From Daphnia pulex (lineage: Eukaryota; Arthropoda; Branchiopoda; Diplostraca; Daphniidae), in contig NC_060026.1 of NCBI RefSeq assembly GCF_021134715.1, positions 3,100,001-3,164,000 of the forward strand: a stretch of 64,000 bases of DNA, written 5' to 3'. Below the pieces are notes generated by a model that was not told the origin of the DNA, did no database searches, and was given only the letters and a program-made list of their open reading frames with translations. Shown piece by piece: positions 37,540 to 63,700 of the stretch (within the stretch, counting starts at the first letter, position 1; each line of letters starts with the position of its first letter). The translations under genes and the position numbers were made by a program.

Positions 37540-39211
37540 TTAAACGGCTTGAACATAGGCGGGATATAATTCAATGTTGCATCTGTTGACACCGCGCAGG
37601 ATTCGACCGTAGCCCGAGATCCCCCAGCCGGTCCCCCAAGAATTCCGAACGACCCAGAAGTCGACTCCGTTGAGTTTGCCATATCCGACCAGTACAACGG
37701 CGTGATTGACATCCGGTCCATCACAAGCCGGATCGTCGTACACGCCGCCCCTGTTAACAAATAAATAAAAGAAAAAGAAAAAAATTGTGTCGGCTCTTAT
37801 ATGGCGTATCATTTGAACCGTTCTGCACTTACCCATAAGAGAAAAACGAGTTTATGACATTGATGGCAACTGCAAGGGGACCGTATCGTTGCAGGGCTGA
37901 TTGCATGGCTGCCGGGTTATTACTTTGAACGTAACCGTAAGTCGATACCTGGGCTCCGACCATCGAGGTCTTGAATTTGCAAGCACCTTTCTTTAAATGA
38001 ATGTGATTTTAGTTATTAATTCCGAATGATAATCCGACAAACTTAAAGCAAATAATAATTGACAAGATTTTTTTTCCTTTTTTCGATGAATTATTTTACC
38101 CTGCCAGTGTAGGTGTAGAGTTGTCTTTTTGCAGATCCGCTTTTGGACTTGAGATAATTCCAGGCGTCCATGTACCACCCACCGTTGCATCCGTTGTTGG
38201 AGGTGTCACAATCAACCAAGTGCTGCTCGCTGCAATCGGACGGGGGTGATTGACAAATTATTGATTCCAAAATTCATTCGAAAGTTAGTTGATGAGGAGA
38301 AACATTTGAGCTTACCTCAACATAACGGGGCTTCCGGTTATCTTGCATTTCGAGAACTCGAGCGGGGTAATGGCAGTAAACGCCCAGCAGCTTCCACACT
38401 GAATGCAGAAACTATAGCGTTAATTTTTTTCAATTTAAAAAATAATAGACCCCGGCAAACCCCCACCTCTCCGAGATGTAGTCGAATTGTATCTTACCCG
38501 CCCTTGTTGTCTGACTGCCGGTAAACAGCGGTCGAAACGGTAGTCCAACTAAAACAGCATTCGTCCAAGGAAATTAAAAGAATGAATTTCACGAGATGGC
38601 AGTTATAATATTGGATTGATAATTGAACAAAATTTGAAAGATTGACTCAGTTAGCCACTCACGCTCGGGGGAAGTTGGCGACTTTGCAAGTCGAAAACCG
38701 GAATGGACTTGAGAAACTCGGCGCTAGGGACCATGGAAGCATTCACTCCGAGGAATCGTTTCTTTTCCCAGGGTCCCTGAATTTGAAACGTTCACCAACG
38801 AGCGATTGCGATTATTGCTGTGTAGATCGTATTCATTTAATGTGAGTGCCCTTGACACATCATCACGTATTCGCGAGCGGAATCTTACCAAGACGGAAAA
38901 TTCATTGAGTTCTTGGAAAAAGCCGTTGTCCTTTTTGCTGTTATGTCGTTTGATTTGTTCCATCTGGGCGAGGAAATTCTTCTTGCGAGCCCGGTCTCGC
39001 TTGCCATTGTCACCCGCAATGTTGTAGTCTAACTTGTACTTCCTCTGCAATTTTTTTTAAATGCACGGGTTTATCATTTGCCAATCGCTGTATAGATTGA
39101 GAAAAACAAATCTTGGCTTACCTTGTAATCTCTCCAGGCGTCCTCGTCGGAATAGCCTTTGACCACCGAGACGGCCATCGCAAACGCAGCCAATACAAAG
39201 AAGAGCTTCAT
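37540..39211 (-). CDS. CP5: cathepsin L-like cysteine protease
   Basis: Exons 39122-39211, 38889-39044, 38663-38776, 38498-38548, 38316-38398, 38100-38229, 37833-37990 and 37540-37750 give 330 aa. Signal peptide; I29 prodomain ([20 protein letters not shown]); Gln in [41 protein letters not shown]. No break seen. Exon 1-3 sequences and the promoter are close to CP6 and CP7, which form a sub-cluster with it. Confidence 0.92.
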
Positions 39212-39424: not shown

Positions 39425-40380
39425 ATGGAAAAATCGCCAAATTAGGAGTAGTAGGATGGCGCTTTGACATCCTTTTTTTATCAATATCAGGTCGCAATCG
39501 CTTCTTTGATTTGGCTTCCGCAATTGATGGAACACAAAAGTACATGTGTAACGACATCTGGGGGTTGCTCGAAAGTTATCAACTTTTGCGTTGACCGTTA
39601 TATCGACCCACTTTGATTTCTCTTATTCCACGTTTGAATTTGAGACTTTGTGAGTCGAGTGATGTTGTTTCATCATAATTCAAAGCCGAATGCATTTTGG
39701 TTTTATTGTTGAACTCGACTCCAGTCTCGACGTATATACACGAGAGTTGAAATTGTGTAATTCTTATTTATTCGCATTTCAACTGAAACCGGGATAACCT
39801 AGCTGGACAAACTTGAAAAGGAAAAGAAAACTGAGCGATTTTTTAAGGCTTGTTCTCAGGTTTCCCCGCCATTTCTTGTAGGTTTACGTCTTACCAAATT
39901 TTGTTTTTTCTATGCGCTGGTAACTTTTTATGGTGACGTTTTTTAAAATGCTGTATCATATTAAATTATTTCTGGATAAGACGCTTGTAAATGCGCATCT
40001 TAAACACTTCAAAATCGAAAGTTGTCAACTAATAAACCGATAGTGTCACAAACTCAATCGCAGGCGGAGCAATTTGATTATTGCGAAGCTTGTTCTAACT
40101 CAGAGCGATGAAGAATGGCCAAACTCTGCCAATCAGTCCTTTAATTGGTGGTACTTAATGTTTTTTTCTGTCGTACTAGAAGTCTAGAACGAAATCCAAC
40201 GGCTTCCGCCATCTGTCTGTTGAAAGCCTTAACTTAACATTGCGTGACTTCAATGACTCTTGCCCGGATAAAATCGATAGATAAAGACACAACTTCCGGC
40301 TATTCTCTGGCGTGAAATGGCCAGCTCGAGTACTATTACCACCAGAAACATTGATGTAAAAGAGAGTTGATGTAACAGAT
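39425..40380. other. CP5-CP6 spacer, no gene seen
   Basis: I searched this strand for exons 4-8 of CP6 and found none. It is otherwise featureless apart from the conserved element that follows it. Confidence 0.5.
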
Positions 40381-40389
40381 TAGTCACTG

Positions 40390-40520
40390 GTGGAACGTTC
40401 ACTCAATTTCCATGTCAACAGCTGCGTTCGAAATAACCGGTTCGATTTCACGGCACGATCGGGCCCCGCATTTTACAGAAAAATATCACACAACATCCAT
40501 CTGTCGAGTTGTGGATTCAC
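40390..40520. promoter_or_regulatory. Conserved non-coding element, copy 1
   Basis: CGTTCACTCAA, GTCAACAGCTGCGTTC, AACCGGTTCGATTTCAC and CACGATCGGG occur in this order. The same series recurs at 42245-42320, 45605-45730 and, diverged, 56650-56780. Each copy lies between two cysteine protease genes. Function unknown; it may be a shared distal regulatory element or simply duplicated spacer. Confidence 0.5.
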
Positions 40521-40671
40521 TTTTTTCCCGTCTCATTTTGTGGCGCCAATTCACGTTATTTTTCAAATATTCACACGTCATTTTATAATATCCGCATCCG
40601 AGGTGATTAAAACATTTATTTTACGTTAGGATAGAAAAAGGTTGAATTGAGCAATGTAATGGACTACTTGG

Positions 40672-41276
40672 TTAGCTACTCACATTCGGAGGAAGTTTGC
40701 GATTTTGCGAGTTAAAAACCGGAATGGACTTGAGAAACTCGGCGGAAGGGACCCTGGAAGAATCAATACCGAGGAATTGTTTCTTTTCCCAGGCGGTCTA
40801 AAATTGATAATTCACCAACGAGCACGAGATGTTTAATATTGGACGAATTATAGAATAACAATTTTGAACGCTTTTGCCACATCGTGCGGATTATTGACGA
40901 GCGCTTTTAATCGCCATGAAATTTTGTCGTAAAGAGATTTGAGAATTATATACTCTTACGGTCTTACCATAACGGAAAATTCACTGAGTGCTTGTAAATA
41001 GTTGTTGCTTTCGCTGTTGTGTTTATTAATTCTTTCCCTCTGGGCGAGGAAAATCTTCTTGCGCAATCCGTCTCGCCTTCCGTCGTCACCTGCAATGTTG
41101 TAGTCTAACTTGTGCTTTTTCTGTAAATTACGTGGTTTACAATTTGTCAGTCGTTATTAGTTTGAAAGAAACAAATCTTGGCATACCTTGTAGTCTCTCC
41201 AGGCGTCATCGTCGGAATAGCCGTTGACCACCGAGACGGCCATTGCAAAGGCAGCCAATATAAAGAAGAGTTTCAT
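40672..41276 (-). CDS. CP6: secreted prodomain-only (I29) protein, truncated cysteine protease
   Basis: Exons 41187-41276, 40968-41120 and 40797 to the stop at 40672 give about 122 aa. It has the signal peptide ([19 protein letters not shown]), the conserved DDDAWRDYK start of the prodomain and an ERFNIN-like helix (RRDGLRKKIFLAQRERINKHN, in two halves). It then has the third prodomain exon with YLG/FLG and SIPVF. Where the other genes splice at PPN/GTGAGT, read-through adds three codons and a TAA. No catalytic exons follow in the next 1.4 kb. The promoter and all splice sites are intact. Known analogues are propeptide-only cathepsin inhibitors (Bombyx BCPI, Drosophila crammer, mouse CTLA-2). 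It could inhibit the neighbouring proteases, or be a young truncated pseudogene. Confidence 0.75.
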
Positions 41277-41496
41277 TTCGAATCTCCACAAAGTGCTTTG
41301 ATCCTATTTTTGGAATGTAAAGTAACAAATTTAGAAAACCAAAATACAACACAAATGCGTTACAATTATAATTCATCAAAGTTTTTACGGCATCAATATT
41401 TTGGAATTTAAATTTTACCCAAGGAAATGCTAGCCAGTCAGACCGACACTGCTGTAGTCCTGTAATGCTAATAAAGTCTGTATAGGAATTGCAGCA

Positions 41497-41504
41497 TTTT
41501 TATA
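41497..41504 (-). promoter_or_regulatory. TATA box of CP6
   Basis: TATAAAAA on -. The whole stretch 41280-41720 is nearly identical to the CP7 upstream region 44415-44830, including this box. Confidence 0.65.
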
Positions 41505-42244
41505 GTAGAACTGGGCGCCTAGTTAGGAATGCTACTCTTTGGCGCCACACCCTTTTTGTCATCTTCTGTCACCAATCTTGATTGTTTCGCATCCGCAATC
41601 ACAGCGCGGAGTCCACCCTACACACATCTCTAACACCTGAAGGAGGTTTGCCAGTTGGCAACACGTTGATTGGCGTTGACCGGCTATCGACCCCCTCAAC
41701 TTAAAAAAATCCATTAATTATCTATGAGTCCCAAATTAGGAATTTAGACTCTTTGACACCGTTGTTGTCATTTTTTTTGTTGCCAGTCGCGTTTGTTTTG
41801 CGTCCCATATCAGAACGCAGGATCTAAACACACATTTCCACTACTTAAAGAGGGTGTTTATTTTTCACAACATGTTTATTTGCCTTGACCGGCGGTTGTC
41901 GATCCGTCTTAGTAAGACTGACTTATACCTTACACTTCGTCTTTCCTTAATGGTTGATTTGAATTCATACCTTGGGACTTGTTTTCTCGATCCAGCTAAA
42001 GAAACCACAGTAAAGAGTAAAGTCGCAATATTTTTAATTTTGATGCTCATGAAATTTAAAAGTTCATCACCCACAAAGGCCTCTACAAATTTGGTTGTGG
42101 AATGTAACTCTTCTCCACCCTTTCCTAATTTTATGTAATAGCTAAAGGAGTGAGTACAAGAATAAACTAAAATTCTGAATTTAATATGGGAGACAGGCTA
42201 TTACTAAAATTCTTTTAAAAGATGTAATGCAACAGATTATATTA

Positions 42245-42330
42245 TGAAAGTTCACTCAACTTCCTTGTCAACAGGCGTTCAGAAACCGGTTTGAATTCTC
42301 TGCACGATCGAGTCCCGCCTATTAGAAAAA
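42245..42330. promoter_or_regulatory. Conserved non-coding element, copy 2
   Basis: GTTCACTCAACTTC, GTCAACAGGCGTTC, AACCGGTTTGAATTC, GCACGATCGAGTC in the same order as copy 1. Lies between CP6 and CP7. Confidence 0.5.
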
Positions 42331-42745
42331 ACACGCAGCTTCATTTGCTGAGTAGCAAATTAATTCCCCCCCCCCCGTCTCTTTATATCGTCGATCATCT
42401 CACGTTATTTGTTATTTATTTTCGTACTCGACATTTCCACGGTGAATGTTTGAGGTTGGCCGTGTTTGATTAAGCAGATCGCTGAATTGGCAGATTGTTA
42501 GGCTCCAATCAACAGCGTGTTATTCAAATTATTTTTTTTTCGGAGCCAAACAACTAAATCCCCTTCAGAAATTGTTTAGTAAAAATTGTTTCAAGTAAAA
42601 CGTCTTCGTTTGGATTTAAAAGATTTATTGGGAGTTTTCCATCACCGCAACACAATTTTTTAAAATGGTATTTCTCAGTCAGTAGACTGAGAAATTTTAT
42701 AAATATTGAAACCGATGGAAACAAATCAGCGAAAAACAACAGGAC

Positions 42746-44411
42746 TTAAGCTGCTGCTGCAACATAGGCTGGATAGTTTTCGATTCCGCATTTGTTGACA
42801 CCACGTTGGATTAGAAAGTAGCCATTAGTTCCCCAGGTGGTTCCCCACGAGTTGCGGCCGACCCAGTAGTCAACTCCGTTTTGATTGCCCCAGCCAACGA
42901 TGACAACAGCGTGATTGACAGACTGTCCATCACATTCTAGATCGTCGTAAACTCCGGCCCTGTCGACGTATGACATTTTTTTAAATAAAAGGAAAATATT
43001 ATGCTGTCAATCGGACCATTTTACACTTACCCATAAGCGAAAAACGACTCTATGACAGTGAGAGCAGTTGCGAGAGGACCGTATTCCATCAGGGCTACTT
43101 GCATGGCTGTGGCGTTGTTACTTTGAACGTAATCGTACGACGCTACCTGGGCTCCGGTCATCGAGGTTTTGAATTTGCAAACAGCCTCCTGTAGAGTAAT
43201 GTGATTAAGCAATCTCGAATGACACTCCAACAAATGAAGATAACTGGAATTAAAGGTTATTACGTGAAACATGTATTTTTACCTTGGCGTTGTAAGGGTA
43301 AAGTGTCTCTTTGACAGCTCCACTGTTGGATTGTAGATAGTCCCAAGCGGAAGTGTACCACCCGCCGTTGCATCCACCATTAGTGTTGTCGCAATCGACC
43401 AAGTGTTGCTCGCTGCAATTTCGATGAGGTGATTCGACAAATTAACATTCGTTTAGAATCAAAGTTACACTCGTGAATTTACGAGGAGCAACATATTAGC
43501 TTACCTCAATACAACGGGGCTGTCGGTTAGCTTGCATTGAGAGAATTCGAGCGGAGTAATGGTGGTAAACGCCCAGCAGCTTCCACACTGAATGAAAAGA
43601 CACATTTTTATTTTCCCCATGGCTCTCAGACGTATATTTAAAATATCAAACTGAATCTTACATATCCCTGGTCTTTAATCTCCGGCATACAGGGGTCGAA
43701 ACGGTAGTCCAACTAAACATTCGTCCAAGGAAATTAAAAGAATGAATTTCACGAGATGGACAGTTCTTGATTTCAATTTAACAAATTTGGAGCGTGTTGT
43801 TTAATGGTCAAATCAGTTAGCTACTCACACTTGAAGGAAGTTGGCGACTTTGCAAGTTAACCGGAATGGACTTGAGAAAATTAGCTTTAGGGGCCTTGGA
43901 AGGATTGACACCGAGGTATCGTTTCTTTTCCCAGGTGCCCTGAAATTAAAAATTCACCAACGAGCGATTATTTATGATGTTTAACATTCTATGAATTTAT
44001 TCAAATTTGAATGGCACATCTGGGCACATCGTGTGGATTACTAACGAGCGCTTTAATCCATCATGAATGGAGTCGTAAAATTGAATCATGCTCTTACCAT
44101 AGCGGCAAATTGATTTAGTTTCCTTAAATAGCTTTTTGTATGGCTGTTATGCTTATTAATTTTTTCTCGATTGTTGAGGAAAATCTTCTTGCGCAATCCG
44201 TCTCGCTTTCCACCGTCATCTTCGATGTTGTAATCCAACTTGTGCTTTTTCTGTCATTTTAAAATTGACAGTTATAATTGAACAGTCGCTATAGTTTGAG
44301 AAAAAACAAATCTTGTCTCACCTTGTAGTCCTTCCAGGCGTCATCGTCGGAATAGCCGTTGACCACCGAGACGGCCATTGCAAAGGCAGCCAAAACAAAG
44401 AAGAGCTTCAT
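42746..44411 (-). CDS. CP7: cathepsin L-like cysteine protease
   Basis: Exons 44322-44411, 44098-44250, 43829-43939, 43662-43712, 43505-43587, 43283-43412, 43031-43188 and 42746-42959 give 329 aa. Signal peptide, I29 prodomain (LNNREKINKHNS), Gln in [41 protein letters not shown]. All catalytic residues are present. The C-terminus is a run of four Ala. Exon 3 is one codon shorter than in CP5. Promoter, 5' UTR and exons 1-2 are close to CP6, so CP6 and CP7 are recent duplicates of one gene and CP6 lost the catalytic half. Confidence 0.92.
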
Positions 44412-50640: not shown

Positions 50641-50783
50641 GACCCTCCAGCGTGATTCTACCAAATAAAACCCGTTTTTGGTATTGTTTTTATCCAGAAG
50701 TTAACGAACTGTCCGACACCATGTTTCCAACATCAAGCGCTATAATAATCATTCGTCGAATTATTGGTTTGGTTTTTACTCAC

Positions 50784-51703
50784 CTCAAAACGATGGGAGT
50801 TTGTTTTTTGTTTCTTGCTGTAATTGAATTCGATTGGAGCGACTGCAGCGAACGCCCAACAGCTTCCACACTTGATTGAATTAAAAAGAACGACATTTGT
50901 CGAATTTATTAGCGCTACAAGAATTCCATTTTTGCTTAAATCCAAGTTACTTTTTTCTGGTCTTTAACTGCCGCCATGCAATTGTCTGTTCGATAGTCAA
51001 GCTATTATATTCCCAAAAACCAAAATTACAAAAATAATAATTCATCAGAGATTTAGGAAACAATAATGTCAAATAAGTATTATTCAAGCAAATCGATAAA
51101 TAAATAACACCCACTGCTTCAGGAAGGGCTTTTCTATTTTGCGGCAGGTCATCATCATCATCTCCGTGAATGGATTTCATAACCTGAATGGAAGGCGCCA
51201 TGGAAGATTTTAAAACGCCGAGATATCCAGACTTTTCCGATGGCCTCTTATAGAAGGGAATAAAATATCAAAGGACGGAATTATATTATGCTCCGTAAAT
51301 GATAATAGCGTGCGAACGTTAGCCGGCGATTTATCAGCAGAGGTAAATTCGAAAGTGATGTAATAAGACTAAATTTCTAATCCATACCATATCGGAGAAT
51401 CTGTTCAATTCTTGGCTGTAGGATCGCGATTCGTTGCGGTTGTGTTGATTGACGAGTTGGCGTATTCGGCTAGGAAAAGTCTCTTGCGCATATTGTCCCT
51501 CCATCCATCCACCGCCGAAGAAAGTCGTGTAATCTTTCCGTGTGTGTCAACTTGAATAATAATGGATTGCCATCCGCGTTAAAGAAAGAAGTACATTTTA
51601 TTTTGGCTTCTTATCGTACCTTGTAAGCGTTCCAAGCGTGTTCTTCGGAAAAGCCGTTTGCGACGACAACGAATAAGGCGACAAACTGAAACGAAAATTT
51701 CAT
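50784..51703 (-). pseudogene. CP10: truncated and frameshifted cysteine protease
   Basis: Only exons 1-5 remain: 51620-51703, about 51388-51548, 51115-51246, 50951-51001 and 50784-50870. Exon 2 has an extra base early on (ACACACGG where CP8 has ACACAAG) and further indels. Exon 5 (CGSCWAFAA) has one extra A in an A-run, making 87 instead of 86 nt. Exons 6-8, with the GCxGG, His and Asn motifs, are absent; the sequence passes directly into the duplicated flank. Clearly a pseudogene. Confidence 0.88.
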
Positions 51704-60715: not shown

Positions 60716-63700
60716 ATGGTCAAAGCCTTTTCCAAGGCACTGCTTTATTACGTACTTCCTATTTTTTGTTTTATCGTGTCGGGTCTGAGTCAAAGTCCTC
60801 TAAGGCAGGATTCGAATCATGCAATTACAGGTATATAAAAGGTCTATTTAATTTCCCTGATAAATTTTAACCTTTTCACTTTTCATTTCCTTTGCCTAAG
60901 GTTCTGAAAAATTCAACACAGCAGCTCTCTTTCCTTCGATAGCAGATCAGCTAAAAAAATTAAGCCATATTCGAAACCCTAGGCAAATTGATTCAGGGAA
61001 GCTTTATATGGATCATAGTGGTGAGTAATGACGAATCTAGTCTGTACAAGCTGCTGTTTATTTCCCATCGAAACCAAAGTATTCTTTGAAAACATGTGAA
61101 CTATGATGTTCCTCTAAATAGTTTAAGAATGCTTTCATGCCTGAGGAATCAGATGAGGCTTTGATATCTGCAATGTTGGAGAAATTTTGAAATTTCTGAA
61201 CTTCGTCATGTTCTTCTAATTTACAGGAAATCTTCTGCCAGTTTAGTGCACGAATCTAGAAAAAAGCTAGGTTTCATTGTGTGCATTACAGATTTTTCAA
61301 AATGTTACCCTTTGCCACCATATGTTGCAATTTGTTTCCAATCCTTCCACACAGATTAAGCCAGGTTTCCCAGGTAAAAAGAAACCAGTGAGATTTAATT
61401 CTTTAGCCCAGTCTTCAATATTCTTCATTTTTGACTTGCTGTAAATGTGGTGAGAATGAATCCACATTCTGAAAGTTTTCTTGTCTTCGGTTTTGGAGAT
61501 AGGGGCTAGAATATCTCCCTCTAGGAAGGTCAAGTAAGCAGGAAAATTATCCTTTACCCATTCTACTACTGAACCAATATAGATTGATTCTGGCTCCAAT
61601 GTACGTTGAAAACTTCTGAGTTCCAAATTGATCCCATTATGATTAGTTCTTCCTAGGTGCCCACTGTGCACTGATATTTGAGCTGGTATACTTGGGTAGG
61701 AATTAGGAAGTGATACACTTATATTAACCTTTGCCTGTAAATGGATGACAGTATAGAAAGAAATATTTCTCTCTGCTTCAAATATTCTTACCTCCATAAT
61801 GTTAAGGTTGATGTTATACTCCAGTTTTGGAACTTTGTCTCTTCCTAGTTTACCCGATAAAAAGTCGTGTAAATCAGAAATAACTCCAGGATCAATAAGC
61901 TCAAGCTCGCCCTTGTTTGGAAACATAGATCCCAGCATTTCCAGCTCAGAAAGCTGGAGCTCTATATTATTTTCTACATCACTGTTTGAATCCATCAAGT
62001 TACTCGTGTTTTGTAGTCTTGTTTACGTTTTCAATTGACGTAAGGTGCGTTGTTGCCGCTTTTATTTAATCTGAAGAAAAGTTGCATTTTATTGATAATA
62101 ATTGAAAATAATATTCAGTTGGACTAAACATGTATATGTGATTTTCTTTCAAGATGTTTGGGTGGTACAAGGCTTCAAGAATTTCCGAGGCTGTCCGAAA
62201 GCTGCACAACAATTCAAGGTTTTCCAAAATGCTGAAGATTGGTACGCCGTGATTGCTACCAATGCGGTGGAAAACAACACAGAAATTTACTCATTTTCTA
62301 CGGTATAAATATTTTAAAGTACTCTGCTTTTTTTGCGCATGGTCTAATCATGTTTTTTACAGCTAAACGGATGTGAAAAATTACTCGAAACGCTTCCGAC
62401 CCGCCTGGCGTTCGATTTTGAGGTCGTCCGCACTAATGACGTCATACGTATAGTCGTTTTGGAGAAGACCCCAGCCAAATACCCACACAAACGGATTGGA
62501 TCTTCAGTTTACACCATTAACTTTGCCACTAATGTGACTATCAGCGCCAACAGAAGAGAAGCGCTTCGCAGCGAAGATCCCACTTGCATCACTTCTTGGT
62601 TGTTTACTATTAATTGTATTCAAAACCAAATCCATCTTATAATTATTTGTTTTCGTCTTGAATAGGGAACAGTTTGGAATTCCACACGTCGCTATTTGTA
62701 ACGGCAAGAATCGTGATTTTAGAGGAATTGAAAGCTACTGGGCAAAGTCGTATATTTACTGTGCTAGTGGAGGCTATTTTGATCGGTGCGGAGAAATCGA
62801 GACACACTTTCCGAAGGCGATCCGACACTTCCGCATATTTTCCAAGCACTATTTAGCTGTTGCCAATTACCCTAACGAAACTGGTACAGATCGATGACTT
62901 TACGTTTCCAACTAAATTAAATTCCCTGTCTCTTAAATTTTAGTGGCTGAAGATGTCCCCACTGAAATTCTTCGATATGATCTTGGCTCAAAAATGTATA
63001 AACAGTTGCAGTTTTTGCCAACCAAGGGTGCATCTGATGTGTGCTTCTTGGACATTGGTACGGGACTGAATACCCTCCACTTCCTCGTGGTTGTGAATAG
63101 GCTTACTTTCGGTATGACAGATTCAATTCAGGAAATGCCACGTATTAATGTTTATAATTTCTGATCCGCTTAACCTCAGATTCCACAGGAAAGGGCAATA
63201 ACGATGCCACATCGCATGTTTATAAATTCATTGGCGAAAAATTCGAACCGTTTCAGTCTATTGCTATTGACAGTAAAACGACGGGATGCTTTGCTTATCA
63301 GGTAATTTTGTTTTGTGAAATTCACAGTAATTGATTCCTCATTTTAGCATTTCACTGTATTAGGAGAATGGTGGAAAATCGGCTTTGATATTTTCCACTT
63401 GGTGGGGAGTAGATGTTTATCAATACAATGGATGGCGTTTTGTAAGGGTCGTCCAGTATTCCAGCTTCGCTCTCGGTTCTGGAATCAACACTCTTGGAAC
63501 TCTGAAGATGAATAAGGAGACTTTTATAAGTATTAATATTTTTTAGATAATCAAAGAGGAAAAATACTAACCGGTGTTTTTTTTTCTGCATTGTCTTTTA
63601 GCTGTTGCAAACTCTAATCCAGCAAAATCCTTCAACGACAACTTGTTTTCACTAAAATTCTCTCAACAATTAAACGCCACCCTATCTACCGTTTTCTCAA

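Follow-up and report, generated by a model that had tools for sequence, protein, structure and literature searches.

A prodomain-only member of a Daphnia pulex cathepsin-L-like protease array is probably a truncated relic with inhibitor potential

The protease array and the gene structure of CP6

The window analysed here is the 64,000-nucleotide stretch at positions 3100001-3164000 of contig C10, in an assembly of 133.19 Mb in 13 contigs, and it carries a tandem array of cathepsin-L-like genes on its minus strand. Spliced alignment to CP7 yielded models for ten genes (CP1-CP5, CP7-CP9, CP11 and CP12), all of which align to CP7 across the prodomain and the catalytic part; the models are rough at the start of CP2 and at one junction each in CP9 and CP11. 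CP6 lies between two intact neighbours, CP5 (37546-39211, minus strand) and CP7 (42749-44411, minus strand), the latter with a CP6-like promoter. These two were the array members submitted to full-protein Pfam searches, and both carry an I29 and a C1 domain. CP10 (50736-51703, minus strand) is a broken member of the same array, decayed by frameshifts in exon 2 and by stops, in contrast to CP6, which is open and has a conserved promoter block. Additional C1 genes are found to the left of the array on the plus strand, and the stretch 60900-63400, which includes an ORF (61300-62022, minus strand) encoding RWD and Prp3_C domains, is present twice more at 95% identity, at C10:2829636-2832144 and C10:2843736-2846174.

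CP6 itself occupies 41276-40672 on the minus strand and consists of three open exons, in phase 0 throughout, which together comprise 357 nt, or 119 codons, with no stop. As read from sequence, Pfam and alignment, exon 1 (41187-41276) carries the start codon, a signal-peptide-like hydrophobic stretch and the start of the prodomain, exon 2 (40968-41120) the core of the I29 domain, and exon 3 (40684-40797) the prodomain end with a Leu-Gly pair, followed by a linker. The donors read AAG|GTATGC, ATG|GTAAGA and AAT|GTGAGT, and AG closes both coding acceptors. The hallmarks of a pseudogene (stops, frameshifts, lost splice sites) are absent from the three exons, which bears out their description in the first-pass annotation as intact, open and bounded by family splice sites. 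The spliced CP6 product scores 31.3 bits against the Pfam I29 profile (cut-off 24.4), compared with 31.3 for CP7 and 31.7 for CP5, while exon 2 alone stays below the cut-off at 22.6 bits.

Upstream of the coding part, a TATA-box-like element, TATAAAAAT (41496-41504, minus strand), is identical in CP7. It is followed on the same strand by a putative untranslated first exon (41419-41475), whose start would lie about 30 bases after the TATA element and whose donor, GTAAAA, begins at 41418, and by a putative intron of the 5' untranslated region (41304-41418, GT...AG) that aligns with that of CP7. Over the block 41529-41420, which spans the TATA element and 5' untranslated region, CP6 and CP7 are identical at 108 of 110 positions (98%), so that the promoter is indeed nearly that of CP7, as had been proposed. 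In the same alignment the DNA before this block is identical at 191 of 240 positions (80%; P = 4e-7); a better pairwise alignment gives 68-98% in 40-base steps for the upstream DNA, and the contrast is real but patchier than this P value suggests. Further upstream of CP6, a 60-base block (41638-41697) has 97% identity with CP7, and BLAST also pairs 41662-41513 with a second site upstream of CP7 (45020-44865, 69%); the 60-base block may belong to a repeated, possibly regulatory unit.

Reading through the third donor into the start of the old intron 3 (40672-40683, minus strand) gives V-S-S-stop. This stop three codons past the donor had been noted as a property of CP6; the stop is present but not specific to CP6, since translation of intron 3 in the intact genes CP7 (VSS-stop, 43817-43828, minus strand) and CP5 (VSG-stop, 38651-38662, minus strand) ends in the same way. 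In the other eight genes, the read-through meets a stop after 5 to 63 codons. The VSS stop most likely predates the truncation, being inherited intron sequence and no speciality of CP6, and its evolution for a short CP6 product is ruled out by the same stop in intact CP5 and CP7. Retention of intron 3 in intact CP5 or CP7 would likewise yield a secreted prodomain-only product. About 50 bases past the stop, the hexamer AATAAA (40615-40620, minus strand) is a possible poly(A) signal, one that chance would supply in about 11% of 100-base stretches on that strand.

Loss of the catalytic part and history of the locus

No catalytic remnant was detected between CP6 and CP5 by spliced alignment, in which the CP7 mature domain scored 41 against 40680-39212, equal to the best of 30 shuffles (41), and a PF00112 profile scan (E up to 1, best candidates) gave no C1 match in this gap. 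Both searches agree with the earlier observation that no catalytic exon follows CP6, which has lost exons 4-8 and with them an essential part of the parental gene. A single BLAST alignment covers the homology between CP6 and CP7; it spans 41905-40657 with 79% identity across 1295 columns and stops within intron 3. The DNA from about 40584 on is similar to the spacers that precede CP6 and CP7. Since homology breaks off in intron 3 and spacer homology lies beyond it, exons 4-8 and the 3' end have been lost and intron 3 is now joined to the spacer upstream of CP5; judged from the BLAST alignments, the exact breakpoint is placed within the stretch of about 70 bases between 40657 and 40584 (minus strand). 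The truncation looks like a deletion or an unequal crossover that fused the two. A possible source of the junction stretch, the CP8-CP7 spacer, matches it over about 30 bases (P = 0.02; two overlapping targets, 9 tried), but no weight was placed on this match.

Tandem arrays collapse easily, and an assembly error could in principle have removed the catalytic exons. This is highly improbable here: the region 40001-42600 contains no N, and the sequences in the assembly closest to the CP6 region share 76-82% identity with it and are thus easily told apart. The intact third donor (GTGAGT) and the phase 0 joins would also allow CP6 to serve CP5 as a cassette that supplies an alternative promoter and prodomain, with exon 3 spliced to exon 4 of CP5, or to its exon 2, to give a proenzyme with the CP6 prodomain or with two prodomains. 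Exons 1-3 of CP6 joined to exons 4-8 of CP5 are open for 329 residues, and joined to exons 2-8 for 419; phase 0 is, however, usual at these junctions in the array, so that an open frame is expected. Such splicing would have to skip CP5 exons over 1.6-2.1 kb, against introns of 71-158 bases in CP5 and CP7, and a TGA is met at once if the acceptor of the CP5 untranslated exon is used, all of which makes the arrangement improbable.

The age of CP6 differs between its parts. Intron 1 is 65% identical to that of CP7 and 74% to that of CP5, intron 2 67% and 61%, respectively, and introns 1-2 overall are about 66% identical to CP7 and CP5 alike; the identities of 65% and 67% to CP7 rule out a young copy of the whole CP7 gene. 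Along the upstream region and on to the end of the untranslated intron, CP6 groups with CP7 (143 CP5-only, 20 CP6-only and 21 CP7-only changes), while from exon 1 to exon 3, including introns 1-2, it is about equidistant from both (63, 39 and 60, respectively); both sums leave out the short rows of the 5' untranslated region and intron 3. The first-pass suggestion that a pseudogenic CP6 would owe its open frame to young age thus holds for the 5' end, which is close to CP7, but not for the body with its divergent introns. The 5' end would share a later history with CP7, through conversion or unequal crossover, and the body would be old. The truncation itself may be recent, and over most of its branch CP6 may still have encoded a complete protease.

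This mosaic bears on the idea that gene conversion from CP5 and CP7, and not selection on CP6, kept the frame open. CP6 resembles CP7 in its 5' part and is mixed in its body, the switch lying near exon 1, and within exons 1-3 the CP5-like and CP7-like sites are clustered, falling into 50 runs where 62 are expected (P = 0.014). By NG86 with correction, CP6 differs at silent sites by 0.30 from CP7 and by 0.33 from CP5, not above the uncorrected intron difference of about 34%. The counts are nevertheless small, the clustering weak and the patches short, and the pattern is compatible with the other readings as well; maintenance by conversion is accordingly judged unlikely, if marginally less so than a splicing cassette.

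A genome-wide search for I29 exons returned 37 profile matches (E up to 10, best candidates scored), a lower bound given that exon 2 of CP3 is missing among them. Three of the 37 matches listed have no adjoining C1 match, namely CP6, C12:3909887 and C10:2834038. The weak match at C12:3909887 (E = 0.14) looked unconvincing when read in three frames. The third belongs to a copy of CP12 exons 1-3 with its promoter-like region, here termed CP12b (C10:2833819-2834492, plus strand), which continues into a novel tail of about 35 residues and sits 325 kb from CP12. CP12b ends a block of at least 11.3 kb that shares 93.9% identity, over 11505 alignment columns, with the part of the window extending upward from 58702, and this segmental duplication breaks off inside exon 3. 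On the CP12b branch dN/dS is 0.27, with 1 not rejected (lnL -1529.88 against -1531.00). Recurrent selection for prodomain-only genes is weakened as an explanation, CP12b being the edge of a segmental duplication, and two breakpoint-made fragments in one genome speak for the ease of a passive origin, which is not proof of selection.

Selection and constraint on CP6

Selection was assessed with a codon model with branch classes, applied to paralogues of one genome (five genes, 118 codons and four topologies; also eight genes), in which the CP6 branch also spans the time preceding the truncation. The one-ratio estimate of dN/dS for the five genes was 0.40. Over all three exons, a free CP6 ratio fitted better than the background (P = 0.001 on each of the four five-gene topologies; 0.003 with eight genes), with almost no silent change on the branch and the estimate at its upper bound; a CP6 dN/dS of 1 was not rejected (P = 0.055-0.068 with five genes, 0.094 with eight). 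When data were simulated on one topology, the observed statistic was reached in 0 of 89 runs under one ratio and in 7 of 74 under a CP6 dN/dS of 1. The codon test thus gave no sign of purifying selection on the CP6 branch, where dN/dS is above the background and not below 1.

Divided by part, the nominal P values for the signal, I29 unit and linker were 0.37, 0.019 and 0.029 against the background and 0.50, 0.22 and 0.08 against a dN/dS of 1. Nominal departures from the background were also obtained when the test was confined to exon 3 (P = 0.003-0.009) or to exons 2-3 (P = 0.001-0.003), and in both cases 1 was nominally rejected upwards (P = 0.021-0.035 and 0.030-0.049, respectively). No such departure was seen for exons 1-2 (P = 0.08-0.12) or for exon 2 taken by itself (P = 0.14-0.23); all these P values are uncorrected for multiple testing. 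When the eight tips were tested one by one as a control, CP3 was the only one of the seven intact genes that was also raised (1.21, P = 0.018). The polarised codon changes are not striking, with replacement-to-silent counts of 7:2 in CP6, 12:7 in CP5 and 12:5 in CP7. A dN/dS near 1 between orthologues had been named at the outset as an outcome that would speak against a functional CP6; the branch is indeed indistinguishable from 1 over all exons, but the comparison is one of paralogues, and intact CP3 is raised too.

Other results speak against a plain relic. CP6-only changes number 9 of 243 positions in exons 1-2 against 20 of 173 in introns 1-2 (P = 0.003), and exon 3 is intron-like, with 10 of 111 (P = 0.56). 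The ratio of exon 2 to exon 3 changes is 7:10 in CP6 against 47:14 in CP5 and CP7 together (P = 0.007, for a comparison picked post hoc). The I29 core exon 2 of CP5 (38889-39044, minus strand) and of CP7 (44098-44250, minus strand) itself changes at an intron-like rate, with 23 and 24 lineage-only changes per 153 columns. CP6 breaks none of the nine positions in exons 1-3 that never vary among the nine genes aligned with it (CP1-CP5, CP7-CP9 and CP12); by the same count CP4, CP5 and CP7 also break none and the remaining six break 1 to 5. With a dN/dS of 1, the codon model assigns about 0.07 substitutions per site to the CP6 branch. Frame, start and splice sites were all kept in 7.1%, 2.2% and 0.7% of neutral simulations (3000 runs) at indel rates of 0.05, 0.1 and 0.15 per substitution, and in 26-47% at a rate of 0.02. 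Such rare survival under full neutrality means either that the truncation occurred late in the history of the branch, or that conversion, selection or function kept the frame.

Comparison with stand-alone I29 inhibitors and interpretation

Stand-alone I29 inhibitors are generally taken as descendants of cathepsin-L-type genes whose catalytic part was lost. CP6 resembles them in having an I29 domain above the Pfam cut-off and no catalytic C1 domain, and the proposal that a truncated duplicate is able to encode a secreted I29-only protein is supported by its sequence, from the signal-like start to the 31.3-bit I29 score. On the further first-pass suggestion, an inhibitor matched to its neighbours in a self-regulating locus, the sequence is neutral. 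The product, if made, is predicted by eye from its signal to be secreted; any activity would be that of a prodomain in trans. The array prodomains contain a stretch that we take to resemble a GxNxFxD motif, in which CP6 has Ser for Asn; CP3 is also without the Asn, and the Asp is already gone in CP5, CP7 and CP6.

The closest parallels are BCPI, the Bombyx cysteine protease inhibitor (MEROPS I29), mouse CTLA-2alpha and the CTLA-2-like crammer of Drosophila. In the reports on these proteins, BCPI is a tested inhibitor that contains no cysteine and needs L77-R80, CTLA-2alpha needs Cys75, and crammer loses potency when Gly73 is changed (PMC4089206); crammer is likewise a tested inhibitor, with Cys72 present (PMC4089206, PMC3551606), in which W9, Y12, Y20, R28 and Y32 matter (PMC3551606). 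Like BCPI, CP6 is a cathepsin-L-type prodomain alone, without Cys, and it keeps near its end the Leu-Gly pair that is invariant in nine aligned prodomains and that matches, by eye, the L77-R80 region. Unlike BCPI, CP6 is a predicted protein, has a linker after Leu-Gly and is flanked on both sides by intact proteases of its own family. CTLA-2alpha is a similar case of a cathepsin L relative reduced to its prodomain, and crammer has the same prodomain type, whereas CP6 differs from both in having no Cys. A weak alignment (E = 0.48) of the first half of CP6 to crammer (PDB 2l95), which ends before the Gly73 part, places W, Y, Y, R and F at the five residues that matter and H and A at F16 and E8, neither of which is kept; intact relatives also differ at these two. 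The spider mite genome is reported to lack Bombyx-type small propeptide-like genes (PMC3407033), and a tick report applies "I29" to proteins that also carry a C1A domain, so that the name alone does not denote a stand-alone protein (PMC5361777). Among the matches listed in a search of literature titles and abstract openings, none concerned I29-only genes of Daphnia.

These resemblances make it conceivable, though unlikely, that CP6 is a functional secreted I29 inhibitor which works in trans on the neighbouring proteases, as BCPI and crammer do, its prodomain folding alone, docking and threading the active-site cleft. An I29 score equal to that of CP7, the unbroken invariant positions, the retained Leu-Gly and aromatic residues, the conserved promoter block, the low rate of change in exons 1-2, the improbability of the open frame under full neutrality and the AATAAA past the stop all fit such a role. 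Against it stand the codon test, with its lack of purifying selection on the branch, the Ser in the GxNxFxD-like stretch, albeit with the Asn also missing in CP3 and the Asp in CP5 and CP7, and the H and A at F16 and E8, where intact relatives also vary. A further proposal, fainter still, is that the array makes its own inhibitor: CP6 would be a secreted I29 inhibitor of very recent birth, driven by the promoter type of CP7, its likely target, with adaptive change after the truncation (dN/dS nominally above 1 in exons 2-3) and enzyme and inhibitor switched on together. If true, a partial duplicate would here have been caught in the act of becoming an I29 inhibitor, between its intact relatives.

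The account we favour, at a probability of about 0.58, is that CP6 is the truncated relic of a tandem cathepsin-L-like gene, with at most incidental inhibitor activity. It would be the 5' half of an array gene from which a deletion or unequal crossover took exons 4-8 and the 3' end, leaving behind the promoter-like region, the untranslated first exon, the signal peptide and the I29 exons. Judging from the conserved promoter block, CP6 is probably still transcribed; its transcript would end in the old intron 3 at the inherited stop, and the product, once its signal is cleaved off, would be a secreted protein about 100 residues long. A relic is preferred because no clear selection to keep the CP6 protein is visible, and it is favoured by the homology break in intron 3, the lack of a catalytic remnant, a dN/dS above the background with 1 not rejected, and the passive origin of CP12b. 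Weighed against this were the neutral frame survival of 0.7-7.1%, the nine invariant positions left unbroken, the fewer changes in exons 1-2 than in introns, the conserved promoter block, the failure of exons 1-2 to depart from the background ratio, the plain codon count and the raised ratio of CP3. The estimate at its upper bound and the nominal upward rejection of 1 in exons 2-3 and in exon 3 are also not predicted by a plain relic.

CP6 shares with truncated pseudogenes of tandem duplicates the partial array copy, the intron breakpoint and the lack of clear coding constraint, and differs from them in its still open frame and conserved promoter block. Most probably it is a relic, or else a gene on which selection is not yet detectable. 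Taken on its sequence, it is probably a relic with inhibitor potential and possibly a working inhibitor. Both prodomain-only copies found here are explicable by duplication or deletion breakpoints, a warning for annotation that a gene model with I29 alone does not necessarily encode an inhibitor. CP6 displays the loss of the catalytic part in place, with both neighbours intact, and thereby offers a direct test of whether a fragment of this kind is an inhibitor from the start or just debris.
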